From the NCBI GenBank assembly GCA_012523755.1, contig JAAYTO010000209.1:1-38009 (forward strand): a stretch of DNA of 38,009 nucleotides, read 5' to 3'. This DNA is from Clostridium sp. (GTDB lineage: Bacteria > Bacillota > Clostridia > Acetivibrionales > Acetivibrionaceae). The notes under the pieces are model-generated. The model was not told the origin of the DNA and made no database searches. It was given only the letters and a program-made list of their open reading frames with translations. A program made the position numbers and the translations under genes. This document shows positions 19,203 to 26,885 of the stretch, piece after piece; position 1 is the first letter of the stretch; each line of letters opens with the position of its first letter.

Positions 19203-19295
19203 ATTTGCCGGGCTAAAACTGAATAAAAAATAATAGTAAATGTATAGACAACAAACTTTCATTATGTTAATATTAGAAAGAACTGAATAAACAAG

Positions 19296-19396
19296 CCTTT
19301 AATTAAGTCCAGAGAGACTCAAAAGGTAAGAGTATTATTGATTAGCGAATATCTATGCATTTATTGGCTTCTTACCTTGTGGTAAGGAGCTTTTTT
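19296..19396 (+). promoter_or_regulatory. PyrR-dependent transcription attenuator (anti-antiterminator, antiterminator, terminator)
   Basis: PyrR-binding loop AGTCCAGAGAGACT (19306-19319) in a CCTTT/AAAGG stem; GGTAAG (19325-19330) can pair with CTTACC (19371-19376); terminator gcttcttacc-ttgt-ggtaaggagc-tttttt (19367-19396). Confidence 0.9.
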
Positions 19397-19447
19397 AGTG
19401 GGGTTTTACGAAAGGAAATAACCAAAAATAAAACGGGGAGCAAAAAA

Positions 19448-20002
19448 ATGGTTGACAAAGCTATAATAATGGATGAAAGTGGAATAGTAAGGGCCGCAAC
19501 AAGAATATCCCATGAAATTATTGAGAAGAATAAGGGTGTGGACAACCTTGTGCTGATTGGCATTCAAAGGCGGGGAGTGCCCCTTGCAAAGATGATTTCC
19601 GAAAAAATCAAGGGAGTTGAAGGCAGGACGGTTCCTGTTGGCATCCTTGATATAACCTTTTATAGAGACGATTTAAGCATGCTTTCGGAGCATCCAATAA
19701 TAAACGGCACAGAAATAAATTTTTCTATAACCGGTAAAAAAATAGTGCTTGTGGATGATGTTATTTATACGGGAAGAACTGTAAGGGCGGCTATTGATGC
19801 ATTAATGGACATAGGAAGGCCTAAGGCTATTCAATTGGCAGTATTAATCGACAGAGGGCATAGGGAGTTGCCCATACGACCGGATTATGTTGGTAAAAAC
19901 GTTCCTACCTCAAAGCTTGAGGTAGTAAATGTTAAACTTTATGAGTTTGATGGAGAAAACGCAGTAACAATCAGTGACCTAGAAAAAGGAATAAGCCATT
20001 AA
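19448..20002 (+). CDS. pyrR: Bifunctional pyr operon regulator / uracil phosphoribosyltransferase
   Basis: [77 protein letters not shown] 19448 behind GGGGAG. Confidence 0.97.
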
Positions 20003-20049
20003 GCTTTGTTTTATAAAATATATAAACAATTTTTGGAGAGGGTTTTAAA

Positions 20050-20184
20050 ATGAAAAGTGTGGTATGCTTCTATATTGAAAAACTAAAGGATGGGATTAAA
20101 AGGTGTACTATTGTTTCCATTTTTAAACCTGAGATTGTTTTTGTTAAAGGTATAAATGTTTTTAATATTATAGGTGTTTTTTAA
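20050..20184 (+). CDS. Small 44-aa ORF, candidate pyrimidine leader peptide upstream of pyrB
   Basis: SD GGAGAGGG (20035-20042), 7-nt spacing, ATG 20050, stop TAA 20182-20184 at base of terminator. MKSVVCFYIEKLKDGIKRCTIVSIFKPEIVFVKGINVFNIIGVF. Not in the supplied ORF track because it is below about 60 aa. Confidence 0.6.
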   Translation: MKSVVCFYIEKLKDGIKRCTIVSIFKPEIVFVKGINVFNIIGVF

Positions 20185-20185
20185 G

Positions 20186-20217
20186 ATAGTAAGGAGACAA
20201 TTCTCCTTACTATTTTT
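20186..20217 (+). terminator. Intrinsic terminator/attenuator between pyrR and pyrB
   Basis: atagtaaggag-acaatt-ctccttactat then TTTT; 11-bp perfect stem. Confidence 0.88.
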
Positions 20218-20391
20218 ATGTACACAGTACAAAGACTTTAGTATAGGGGTTTTTATGAGGAAGAGAAAATCGGTTAACTTCAAACCCGGTTAGCTAAATT
20301 GCAAAGTTAAGCCCAAAATATGTTTTGTATAATATTGGAGACATTCTTGTCTTCCATTAATAATAAGTTTTATTAAGAGTGGGGTGTAAGG

Positions 20392-21330
20392 ATGGCACTA
20401 AAATCAAAAGATCTCTTAGGACTTAAAGATTTGACAAAAGAAGAAATCGAGTATATTTTACGCACTGCAAAAACCATGAAGCTTATTCTTGAATCAAAGA
20501 ATAAGAAGACTCCTCATCTTCAAGGTAAATCGGTCATTACTCTGTTTTACGAGAACAGCACAAGGACGAGATTGTCCTTTGAACTTGCTGCCAAGTATAT
20601 GAGTGCCAGTGCTGCGAATATTTCGGTTGCCGCAAGCAGTGTTGCAAAGGGTGAGACACTTATCGATACAGGAAAAACAATAGATATGATGGGGGCAGAT
20701 GTGATTATAATAAGGCATTCCATGGCTGGAACGCCGCATTTGCTCGCGAGAAATGTAGAGGCTTCAGTAATAAATGCCGGAGATGGGATGAATGAGCACC
20801 CGACTCAGGCACTTTTAGACATGTTTACCGTTATTGAAAAGAAGGGAAGTCTCGCGGGATTGAAGGTTGCGATAATAGGTGATATTTATCACAGCAGAGT
20901 GGTGCGGAGCAATATCTTGGGAATGACAAAATTGGGTGCTGAGGTGTGTGTTGCCGGACCTTCTACTCTGATACCCCGTGAACTGGATAGGGTTGGTGTT
21001 AAGGTCTTTAACACGGTTCAGGAGGCACTTATTGATGCCGATGTGGTTATGGGGCTCAGGATTCAGAAGGAAAGACAGAAGAAAGGGTTGTTCCCGAGCT
21101 TAAGAGAATATTACAGATTTTTCGGACTGGATGATAAAAGGTTAAAGCTTGCAAAAGAAGATGCATTGGTGTTGCATCCCGGACCGGTTAACAGAGGTGT
21201 TGAGCTGTCAACTGCGGTAGTCGACGGTGAAAAATCTCTGATAAATGAACAGGTTACAAACGGAGTGGCGGTAAGAATGGCTCTTCTGTATCTTTTGACG
21301 AGGAGGGATAATGTTGAGGGTGTTAATTAA
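20392..21330 (+). CDS. pyrB: Aspartate carbamoyltransferase catalytic subunit
   Basis: [57 protein letters not shown]. Confidence 0.97.
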
Positions 21331-22609
21331 AGGTGGACATGTTATAGATCCTAAAACCAATACGGACGGCATAAGCGATATATTGATTGAGGATGGGATG
21401 ATAACGGAGGTTGACAATATCAGCGATGACCTAGAGATCTTAAATGGTGATGTGATTAATGCAGAGGGCAAATTGGTGCTGCCTGGTTTGGTGGATGCCC
21501 ATTGTCATTTGAGGGATCCGGGGTTTGAGTATAAGGAAGACATTGAAAGCGGAACAAGAAGTGCTGCAGCGGGAGGATTCACATCGGTAGCCTGTATGCC
21601 GAATACAAATCCTGTCGCAGATAATGAGTCAGTTATAAAATATATTATCAATAAGGCCAAACAGGATGGAGTGGTTAATGTTTACCCCATTGGTGCTATT
21701 TCAAAGGGGCAAAAGGGTGAAGAACTTTCGGAAATCGGTGAATTGAAATTTGCAGGAGCGGTTGCCATATCCGACGACGGAAAGCCGCTAAAAAGGTCTT
21801 CCCTTATGAAGAGAGCTCTTGAGTATTCGTCAATGTTTGATATAACCGTAATTTCACACTGCGAGGATATGGATATTGTAGATGAAGGTGTGATGAATGA
21901 AGGATACTGGTCTACAATAATGGGGCTTAGGGGAATACCTTCCGCGGCAGAAGAGATAATGGTGGCAAGGGATCTTATATTAGCGGAGTATACGAAGGTT
22001 CCGATTCATATAGCCCATGTGAGTACGGAATTGTCTGTTGAGCTTATAAGGCATGCCAAAAAGAGAGGGGTAAAGGTGACCTGTGAGACATGTCCCCACT
22101 ACTTTGTTCTTACGGATGAAGCATGTACTGGTTTTAATACCTATGCCAAAGTTAATCCCCCGCTTAGAACCGAAAGGGATGTTAAGGCGGTAATTGAAGG
22201 TCTGAAAGATGGGACTATTGACGTAATTGCCACTGACCATGCACCCCATCATATAGATGAAAAAAATGTAGAGTTCAATCTGGCGGCAAATGGCATTGTC
22301 GGGTTTGAGACGGCCTTGCCCTTGGCAATAACATATCTTGTAAAGCCGGGACATCTTACAATGAATCAACTGGTGGAAAAGATGTGTGTGAACCCGTCAA
22401 AAATACTGGGACTTAACAAAGGAACACTGGAAGTAGGGCGGAGTGCGGACATAACCATTCTAGACGTTGAAGAAGAGTTTGTTGTGGATGTCAACAAGTT
22501 TAAATCAAAGGCTAAAAATTCACCCTTTGACGGATTTAAGCTAAAGGGGTCGATTTATTACACAATAGTAAACGGCAATGTTGTTGTTAGAGAAAAGGTA
22601 CTTCTTTGA
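21311..22609 (+). CDS. pyrC: Dihydroorotase
   Basis: [88 protein letters not shown]; overlaps pyrB by 20 nt. Confidence 0.96.
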
Positions 22610-22665: not shown

Positions 22666-23613
22666 ATGTTTGTTGATACACTGATTGAGAAAATTAAGGA
22701 AAAAAATAACCCTTCCGTTGTGGGATTGGATCCTAAAATAGAGTATGTACCTTCTTTTGTAAAAGAAGAGATGTTTGGAAAATACGGTAGGAATTTAAAA
22801 GGGGCATCCGAAGCCATTTTAGCTTTCAATAAATATATTATTGATGCAATTTATGATATTGTACCGGCAGTTAAACCCCAGTTGGCATATTACGAAATGT
22901 ACGGGCTGGAGGGAATCAGGGTGTTTAGTGAAACCTGCAGGTATGCAAAGGAAAAAGGGCTTTTGGTTATTGCCGACGGAAAAAGAAATGACATTGGTTC
23001 AACAGCAGAAAGCTATTCGGCTGCATATCTGGGAAGAACACTCATAGACGAAGGAATAAGCGAACCTGTTTTTGATGTGGATGCACTGACTGTTAACCCA
23101 TTTTTGGGTATAGACGGGATAAAACCTTTTATATCCGACTGCAAAAAGTATGGTAAGGGGATATTTGTGATAGTAAAGACTTCAAACCGCTCATCGGGGC
23201 AGTTTCAAGATGTGCTTACCATGGAAAGCAAGAGTATGTATGAAGTTGTTGCCCGATATGTTGAGGAATGGGGACAGTATGTTAAAGGAAAGTATGGATA
23301 CAGCAGTATTGGGGCAGTAGTAGGGGCAACGTATCCCAATCAGGCAAAAGTACTGAGAAAGATTCTGAAAAGTTCTTATATACTGGTTCCGGGTTATGGT
23401 GCCCAAGGAGGAACCGCCAGGGATGTGGCTCATTCCTTTAATTACGATGGAATGGGAGCAATAGTGAATGCATCAAGAAGTATTATGTGTGCCTATAAGG
23501 CTGAACAATGGAAAGATGTCTACAGCGAAGAGAGATTTTATGAAGCATCCCGGGCTGAGGCAATAAGGATGAGGGATGACATAAACAATGCGGTTAACGG
23601 TTCAAAAAAATGA
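22666..23613 (+). CDS. pyrF: Orotidine-5'-phosphate decarboxylase
   Basis: VVGLDPKIEYVP, AVKPQLAYYEMYG, IADGKRNDIGSTAESYS, TVNPFLGIDGIKPF, VPGYGAQGGTARDV. Confidence 0.95.
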   Translation: MFVDTLIEKIKEKNNPSVVGLDPKIEYVPSFVKEEMFGKYGRNLKGASEAILAFNKYIIDAIYDIVPAVKPQLAYYEMYGLEGIRVFSETCRYAKEKGLLVIADGKRNDIGSTAESYSAAYLGRTLIDEGISEPVFDVDALTVNPFLGIDGIKPFISDCKKYGKGIFVIVKTSNRSSGQFQDVLTMESKSMYEVVARYVEEWGQYVKGKYGYSSIGAVVGATYPNQAKVLRKILKSSYILVPGYGAQGGTARDVAHSFNYDGMGAIVNASRSIMCAYKAEQWKDVYSEERFYEASRAEAIRMRDDINNAVNGSKK

Positions 23614-23666
23614 TTTGATATAAATTATCAGATGTTTTAGAAGGAATAGTATTGGGGGAATATTAA

Positions 23667-26600
23667 ATGCCTAAAAGAAAAGACGTTAAGAAGGTCTTGG
23701 TTATTGGTTCAGGTCCTATTGTAATAGGTCAGGCGGCTGAGTTTGACTATGCAGGGACTCAGGCCTGCCGGGCTTTAAAGGAAGAAAATATAGAGGTTGT
23801 ATTGGTTAACAGCAACCCAGCTACAATTATGACAGACACTAATATTGCGGACAGGGTTTATATAGAGCCTCTTACGGCAGAGATGGCAAAAAATATCATA
23901 AGAAAAGAGAAAACGGACAGCATACTTCCCACATTAGGTGGACAGACTGGTTTGAACCTTGCTATGGAGCTTGCGGAGTCGGGATTCTTGCAGGAAAATA
24001 ACGTAAAGCTTTTGGGCACAGCAACCGAAGCGATAAAGATGGCAGAAGACCGGCAGGCTTTTAAGGACGCTATGGAGAGAATTGGTCAGCCCTGTATTGC
24101 TAGCAAGGTGGTTAATACAATTGAGGATGCTTTAGAATTTGCAAAAGAGATCGGCTACCCGGTTATTGTACGGCCTGCTTATACTTTAGGAGGAAGCGGT
24201 GGCGGCATAGTTTATAACGAAGAAGAACTTTTGGAAATAGGAAGCAATGGGTTGAGATTGAGCAGGGTGCACCAGGTGCTGATAGAAAAGTGCATATCCG
24301 GATGGAAGGAAATTGAATACGAGGTTATGCGGGATGGCAAGGGCAATGCCATTACCATATGCAGCATGGAGAACATTGACCCTGTAGGTGTCCATACCGG
24401 GGACAGCATAGTGGTGGCACCGTGCCAGACCCTATCCGACAAGGAATACCAAATGCTTCGTCGTGCGTCACTTAAGATAATAAGTGCTTTGGGAATAGAA
24501 GGCGGATGTAATGTGCAGTTTGCCCTAAATCCCCATAGCTTTGAATATGCAGTAATCGAGGTTAATCCAAGGGTCAGCCGTTCTTCGGCTTTAGCCTCGA
24601 AAGCAACAGGCTATCCCATTGCAAAAGTGGCAACTAAAATTGCTATAGGCTACAGCTTGGATGAGATAAAAAATACAGTGACAGGAAAGACCTATGTTTG
24701 TTTTGAGCCAACCCTTGACTATGTTGTTGTAAAAATACCCAAATGGCCTTTTGACAAATTTGTAAAGGCAAGCAGGACCTTAGGTACACAGATGAAGGCT
24801 ACTGGAGAGGTTATGGCAATAAGCAGTTCCTTTGAAGCTGCGATTATGAAAGCCATCAGGTCTTTAGAACTGGGTATTTTCACGCTGGAGCAGGATATTT
24901 ACAAAAAATATAGCGATGGGGAAATAAGAGAAAAAATAAAGGATATTAATGATGAAAGGCTGCTGGTTTTAGCAGAGGCAATAAGAAGGGGAATTACGCT
25001 GGAGGATATAAATGATATTACTAAGATTGATATGTTTTTCTTAAACAAAATCAAGAATCTGGTTCTTACCGAAGAGAAGCTTAAAACCATGAGTCTTTCG
25101 GATTTTACCCCGGATTATTTGGAAAAGGTAAAAAAACTGGGCTTTACCGATGGGGTTATTGCAAAGTATGTGGGATGCAGTAAAGAGGAAGTCAGGGCCA
25201 AAAGAAAAGAATTTAACATTTGTGCGGTGTATAAAATGGTTGACACCTGTGCCGCAGAGTTTGAGGCTGTGACCCCGTATTATTACTCAACCTATGACCG
25301 GCATTGTGAGGTAAAAAAATCAGATAAAAAGAAGGTTCTGGTAATTGGCTCCGGTCCTATAAGGATTGGCCAGGGAATTGAGTTTGACTACTGCTCTGTT
25401 CATTCGGTATGGGGACTTAAAGACGAGGGTTATGAAACCATAATTGCCAACAACAATCCGGAAACGGTCAGCACGGATTTTGACACCGCCGACAGGCTGT
25501 ATTTTGAGCCATTGACCGAAGAAGATGTGGAAAATATTATTGAGAAAGAAGGGATCGAGGGAGCGATTGTCCAGTTTGGAGGTCAGACAGCAATAAAGCT
25601 TACAAAAGCCCTTGATGAAATGGGTGTCAGGATTTTTGGCACGGAACCCAAATATGTAGATGCGGCAGAAGACCGGGAAAAATTTGATGAAATGCTCGAA
25701 GAACTGGGTATTCCAAGACCAAAGGGAAAGACGGTGTTTACCCTTGATGAGGCTTTGGCGGCTGCTAATGAATTGGGGTATCCTGTACTTGTCAGACCGT
25801 CCTATGTTTTAGGCGGACAAGGTATGGAAATTGCTTATAACGATAAAGATGTAGCCGAGTTTATGGAAATAATAAACAGGGTAAAACAAGAACATCCCAT
25901 ATTGATTGATAAATATATGATGGGAAAGGAAATTGAAGTTGATGCCATTTGTGACGGTGAAGACATCCTTATTCCCGGTATTATGGAGCATTTGGAGAGG
26001 GCAGGGGTTCATTCCGGTGACAGCATATCGGTTTATCCTTCGCAGACCATTGATGAGAAAGTAAAACATAGGGTTGTCGATTATACCCAAAAGCTTGCAA
26101 AAGCATTAAAGGTAGTGGGAATGGTAAATATACAGTATGTGTATTACAACAATGAACTGTATGTAATAGAGGTTAATCCAAGATCCAGCCGTACTGTACC
26201 GTATATAAGCAAAGTAACCGGTATTCCCATGGTGAACCTGGCTACCAGGGTCATGATGGGCAGGAGGCTTAAGGAGTTTGGGTACGGCACCGGGCTTTAT
26301 AAAGAATCGGAATATGTTGCGGTAAAGGTTCCGGTGTTTTCCTTTGAGAAGCTTCACGATGTAGATACCAGTCTTGGCCCTGAAATGAAATCCACTGGTG
26401 AGGTGTTGGGAATTGCCAGGACGTTCCATGAGGCATTATATAAAGGGATTATTGGCACAGGCATAAAGCTTCCTCAAAAAGGCGGGGGCATTCTTATGAC
26501 TGTCAGGGATACGGATAAGCCTGAACTGATACAATTGGCGGAAGAGTTTGAAAAGCTAGGATTTGAGCTTTATGCCACAGGAAAGACTGCCAATATGCTA

Positions 26601-26885
26601 AACAACCAGGGAATTGCTACCAATGCCGTAAAGAAAATAGGGGAGGGTGAGCCTAATTTACTGGAACTAATACACTCAGGCAGGATAAACCTTATTATTA
26701 ATACCCCGACAAAGGGTAGAAAACCCGAAAGAGATGGGTTTAAAATAAGGAGAAAGGCTGTGGAAATATCAATACCCTGTCTTACTTCTCTTGATACGGC
26801 AAGGGCCGTTCTAGAATGCATCAAGCTTGGCAGGAATGAAGAAGATCTTGAGGTTGTTGATTTGAGTGTTTTTAATAAAAAGTAA
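23667..26885 (+). CDS. carB: Carbamoyl-phosphate synthase large subunit
   Basis: 1072 aa, duplicated ATP-grasp halves ([55 protein letters not shown]) and MGS C-terminal domain. Confidence 0.98.

Follow-up and report, generated by a model that had tools for sequence, protein, structure and literature searches.

A putative ribosome-operated attenuator between pyrR and pyrB in a clostridial pyrimidine operon

The stretch of DNA analysed here (38,009 nucleotides from a Clostridium sp., hereafter the window) carries a pyrimidine operon in which a PyrR attenuator precedes pyrR and a further terminator, with a short ORF in front of it, lies between pyrR and pyrB. This raises the question of what a second terminator is doing in this operon and which signal it could be reading. 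The answer that we favour, with a probability of roughly 0.6, is that the operon has two serial attenuators and that the second one is independent of PyrR, operated by a ribosome in the manner of pyrL and responsive to UTP.

The operon and the pyrR-pyrB interval

The main features of the operon are given in Table 1, and two more ORFs that follow look like PyrK and PyrD, as judged from their translations. The gene pyrF is followed directly by carB (23613-23667) and no carA was seen in the operon. The original prediction of a PyrR attenuator upstream was borne out by the RF00515 match before pyrR, whose score lies just below the gathering score of 54, the elements of the relatives lying above it. 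The terminator hairpin of this first attenuator occupies positions 19366-19391, upstream of pyrR. Inside the attenuator there is also an ATG that shares the pyrR frame, with no stop codon across the attenuator terminator (19355-20002), giving a possible 31-aa N-terminal extension of PyrR, seen in the window sequence only.

Table 1. Features of the pyr operon and of the proposed second attenuator, in window positions
Feature	Position	Strand	Evidence
First attenuator (PyrR-binding element and its terminator)	19292..19399	+	RF00515, 50.6 bits, E 1.1e-5
pyrR	19448..20002	+	NCBIfam PyrR equivalog NF003549, 260 bits (cut-off 138)
Shine-Dalgarno-like GGAGAGGG	20036..20043	+	Sequence; relatives have a purine-rich GGA/AGGG element at the equivalent site
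Leader ORF, 44 codons, MKSVVCFYIEKLKDGIKRCTIVSIFKPEIVFVKGINVFNIIGVF, UAA at the terminator base	20050..20184	+	Sequence, conservation, shuffles
U-rich tract, about 72 nt before the stem, 53% T (putative UTP-sensitive pause zone)	20111..20182	+	Composition
Intrinsic terminator: 12-bp stem, CAAT loop, U tail	20186..20217	+	Folding, order-wide conservation
pyrB (predicted first gene controlled)	20392..21330	+	NCBIfam match
pyrC	21311-22609	+	NCBIfam match
pyrF	22666-23613	+	NCBIfam match
carB	23667-26885	+	NCBIfam match

The leader ORF between pyrR and pyrB starts with ATG, encodes 44 aa and ends with a UAA at 20182-20184. It is followed by a hairpin with 12 perfect base pairs, formed by ATAGTAAGGAGA (20186-20197) and TCTCCTTACTAT (20202-20213) around the CAAT loop, with U's up to 20217; when folded, the hairpin extends to 15 bp with outer A-U and G-U pairs (-18.6 kcal/mol, z = -7.4). 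The original prediction had placed an ORF at 20050-20184 in front of a hairpin, with four U runs in its second half, and all of these were located. Its Shine-Dalgarno-like element is also present, at a spacing of 6 nt from the ATG instead of 7 nt, and its terminator stands with a stem of 12-15 bp instead of 11 and with the UAA ending 1 nt, not two, ahead of the 12-bp stem. An ORF of at least 30 codons with an ATG and a Shine-Dalgarno element that reaches the stem arose in 1.3% of dinucleotide shuffles of the window interval; the leader ORF of the window is no chance product.

The hairpin (20186-20213) was missed by a simple consensus terminator scan and is revealed by folding and conservation. 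Across 38 loci, namely the window and 37 homologous hairpins, the terminator core AGTAAGGA/TCCTTACT (window 20188-20211) is nearly invariant and the outer stem pairs show compensatory changes. Exact pattern matches to the core occur once per genome, in 8 of 14 members of the family, among them every one of the six from the genus to which the window belongs. So constant a sequence is unusual in a plain intrinsic terminator. Moreover the 5' arm itself resembles a Shine-Dalgarno sequence (UAAGGA) and, as a speculation, it might help to hold a ribosome. Another hairpin (TGGAGACATTCTTGTCTTCCA, window 20334-20355) is found ahead of pyrB, and two other genomes keep it with altered but pairing bases.

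Conservation of the leader and constraint on its RNA

For comparison with the genome of the window, 58 genomes of its order and a sampling of its class were used. Many members of the order have a long pyrR-pyrB interval, and in all 25 long intervals that bear the terminator (13 genera, seven families) an ORF led by a Shine-Dalgarno element reaches or crosses the hairpin. Under a strict rule (ATG, Shine-Dalgarno element, at least 30 codons and an ORF end no more than 15 nt before the core) 24 of the 25 loci qualify, against 0.46 expected in all when the sequence in front of each stem is dinucleotide-shuffled, these loci being related to one another and the counts therefore not independent; the remaining ORF starts with GTG. 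Twelve of the ORFs have their stop codon at or in the 5' arm, and in the other 13 loci the ORF is open through the whole hairpin, which is also how the hairpin lies within E. coli pyrL. One leader ORF overlaps the start of pyrB, and two others end 9 and 13 nt ahead of it.

Nine leaderless relatives have the pyrR stop codon abutting or overlapping the conserved terminator. Because these members of the order retain the terminator without a leader ORF, the leader is dispensable in them, which counts against the mechanism proposed below. At one other locus (L133) the interval has 231 nt and repeated hairpins, is unlike those of its relatives, and perhaps represents a small inserted repeat.

An alignment of related loci had been proposed as a check, and ORF, U-rich tract and terminator are indeed kept together in 13 genera while the peptide drifts. 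Leader peptides are 34-84% identical within groups, with dN/dS of 0.17-1.6, a ratio that is unable to separate peptide from RNA constraint in pairs that are this short and diverged; the aligned gaps are whole codons by construction. Peptide length ranges from 36 to 94 aa and the C-termini are unrelated between genera. One genus retains a CT(I/V)xx(I/V)F block, at which constraint on the peptide is indistinguishable from constraint on the RNA, and the 3' codons of the leader are hydrophobic (I, F, L, V). No family in Pfam or NCBIfam matches the leader peptides; PF08052 and NF007587 did pick up the E. coli leader peptide that served as the control. Inspection of the leader peptides revealed no run of codons for one amino acid.

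The composition of the leader changes sharply along its length. Counted back from the stem in 12-nt bins, T makes up 0.40-0.51 as far as 72 nt and 0.22-0.25 beyond, where A rises to as much as 0.5, so that an A-rich sequence switches to a U-rich one about 72 nt before the stem. In each of the 25 loci T is more frequent in the 3' half of the ORF than in the 5' half; the flanks of the interval have 0.37. With expectations drawn from how each genome uses codons in its own pyrR and pyrB, third-position T was in excess in the last 72 nt (316 observed, 237 expected, z 6.7) and matched the expectation before them (139 and 137). Third-position A in the zone was close to expectation (154 against 144), and C and G were depleted. 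Since third positions are enriched for U in the 3' zone and not in the 5' part, the excess points to selection on the RNA. In 400 kb sampled from a genome of the same genus, coding windows of 72 nt average 0.267 T, and the tract of the window (0.528) falls at percentile 0.9991 of these; elsewhere in the genus the tracts stand out less (0.375-0.514, percentiles 0.938-0.9986). Part of the U excess could come from hydrophobic coding and relaxed codon use, though the silent positions argue otherwise.

Other regulatory elements were sought in the interval. The PyrR loop UCCNGNGAGRCY occurs in no interval tested in the order, yet it is present upstream of pyrR in all leader-bearing members whose upstream sequence was examined, and Rfam reports no PyrR element (RF00515) between pyrR and pyrB. 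Complementarity of the leader to the 5' arm, as an antiterminator would show, does not exceed that of shuffles overall, a few loci (L039, L143) being individually low in this test. A pairing of UACUAUU in the leader with AAUAGUA in the 5' arm, noticed in one genus, was dropped as it is not above shuffles across the order. No conserved promoter site was found between the stem and pyrB, where shuffles match equally well.

A proposed mechanism and its rivals

The first attenuator is a standard PyrR element. In the mechanism that we propose for the second, ribosomes would initiate at the start site of the short leader ORF itself, whose second half is rich in U and whose end lies at or in the 5' arm of the second terminator or beyond it. 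When UTP is plentiful the polymerase would clear the U-rich tract with the ribosome still lagging behind; the hairpin would then form and transcription would stop ahead of pyrB. When UTP is scarce the polymerase would slow in the tract and the ribosome would close up and cover the 5' arm, leaving pyrB and the genes behind it to be transcribed. From the comparison of loci, a conserved, translated-looking attenuator of the ribosome type is quite probable. Translation of the leader ORF and occlusion of the terminator by the ribosome are what we infer from this arrangement, with UTP as the likely signal.

The closest known counterpart is the pyrBI leader of enterobacteria (PyrL, E. coli b4246, PF08052), which likewise has an ORF of about 44 codons led by a Shine-Dalgarno element ahead of pyrB, a U-rich tract inside the ORF before the hairpin and a terminator at or inside the ORF, with no need for an antiterminator. 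The clostridial peptide is however not homologous, as PF08052 and NF007587 matched nothing but the E. coli control, and there is no pyrI, PyrI being absent from the 15 genomes searched, including that of the window. Whereas pyrL stands at the 5' end of its transcript, the clostridial leader stands between pyrR and pyrB, behind a PyrR attenuator; its U zone is longer and further upstream, and the ORF of the window ends at the base of the stem and not through the hairpin. The original prediction of a pyrBI-like architecture holds for the ORF, U-rich tract and terminator; the leader is no member of the PyrL family, with neither PF08052 nor PyrI found. Because the peptide is not homologous to PyrL and PyrI is absent, the best explanation is a convergent variant which works like pyrL outside the PyrL family. 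Literature searches, limited in reach, found no pyrL-like leader described in Firmicutes, which within those limits is consistent with the earlier remark that no such example had been described.

With PyrR attenuators of the B. subtilis type (RF00515) the second attenuator shares the operon and termination before pyr genes, but it lacks the PyrR-binding loop and the antiterminator. Amino-acid attenuators (trp and his, and the hisS leaders of bacilli, PMC2965389) also place a short translated leader before a terminator. They differ by their run of a single codon and their alternative hairpin, neither of which is seen in the clostridial leader, and by keeping more than 20 bp between stop codon and terminator (PMC4824070), whereas the stop is 1 nt from the stem in the window and lies at, in or past the stem in 25 of 25 clostridial loci. 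In E. coli a terminator a few bp past the stop codon is repressed by the ribosome (PMC4824070), and by this comparison the present geometry is of the pyrBI kind. In a sample of 400 kb from a genome of the same genus, the median stop-to-stem distance was 24 nt (51 terminators from a crude detector, some of them doubtful), so the stop-on-stem arrangement is not the rule there. In B. subtilis transcription has been reported to run ahead of translation (PMC13323073); this would weaken a mechanism based on coupling. A U-rich tract could let the ribosome catch up in such a setting. Rho is encoded in the genome of the window (Rho_N match), and Rho-dependent effects of the pyrimidine-rich tract in this leader are conceivable.

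The same anatomy would serve a translation-coupled attenuator that does not sense UTP and reads general translation capacity, growth rate or initiation strength, the U-rich tract being merely a fixed pause that synchronises ribosome and polymerase. The leaderless relatives with the pyrR stop on the stem suggest that a ribosome may exert control even where no dedicated U-rich leader is present. We consider this rather unlikely, given that the genes controlled are those of the pyrimidine pathway, that E. coli uses UTP for the same task and that silent sites are enriched for U specifically, with A hardly raised and C and G depleted. It is improbable that the hairpin is a plain partial terminator that fixes a constant pyrR:pyrB ratio, with the ORF incidental or only a shield for the RNA: versions with the terminator alone do occur in the order, but the ORF is kept far beyond the shuffle expectation, it stays open past the hairpin in many loci, and the U excess is position-specific.

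A small functional peptide, perhaps membrane-associated, beside an ordinary terminator would agree with the hydrophobic 3' codons, the block kept in one genus and some pairs with dN/dS near 0.2; set against the variable lengths, the unrelated C-termini, dN/dS values up to about 1.5, the lack of a Pfam or NCBIfam family and an ORF end tied to the hairpin, it is very improbable. It is hardly credible that the second attenuator is a PyrR attenuator whose binding loop has decayed. Several PyrR attenuators occur in B. subtilis, and other clostridial families have a PyrR element between pyrR and pyrB, but in this order the loop is missing from every interval tested and present upstream of pyrR, Rfam finds no element in the interval and antiterminator pairing is wanting overall. 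The UTP-responsive leader of the pyrL type remains our preferred reading. A bolder version of it, in which a Firmicute operon gauges its pyrimidine supply at two points, first through PyrR and then through a convergent kinetic UTP sensor that depends on local coupling, and in which the near-invariant Shine-Dalgarno-like 5' arm UAGUAAGGA also holds a ribosome or 30S subunit to keep the terminator open, is doubtful.

Origin and significance of the second attenuator

On a tree of PyrR and PyrB the leader form is found in the tested members of the family of the window and in six more families; other members either have the terminator alone, next to a pyrR stop codon that abuts the stem, or lack a terminator. 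An early origin of the leader form followed by losses is likely from this distribution, with mixed tree support inside the order. In other clostridial families, six loci (L180, L181, L183, L190, L176 and L187) have a PyrR loop between pyrR and pyrB followed by a AGAAGGGGGAA-like Shine-Dalgarno element and an ORF of 14-23 codons whose stop abuts the terminator; in four of the six the product has 18 aa, and it ends in GYG or CYG. We read these as putative hybrids of PyrR and ribosome control. Because other clostridial families have a PyrR element at this site and six loci have an added ORF with its stop on the terminator, a switch from PyrR to ribosome control at the pyrR-pyrB site is plausible. 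In the pyr leader of Thermus ZO5, a translating ribosome was reportedly proposed by Van de Casteele et al. in 1997 to block the pyr terminator; that operon is said to include pyrR, and PyrR would act on that very leader, which precedes pyrR. It is closer to the PyrR loop and 18-codon ORF of L180, L181, L183 and L190 than to the window.

If our reading is true, control of the pyrL type, by a trailing ribosome, had a separate origin in clostridia, beside PyrR and in a phylum where the polymerase is thought to outrun ribosomes. One operon would then have swapped an attenuator that senses a protein for one that senses a ribosome, and it would offer a natural and genetically testable case of regulated coupling of transcription and translation in Firmicutes.
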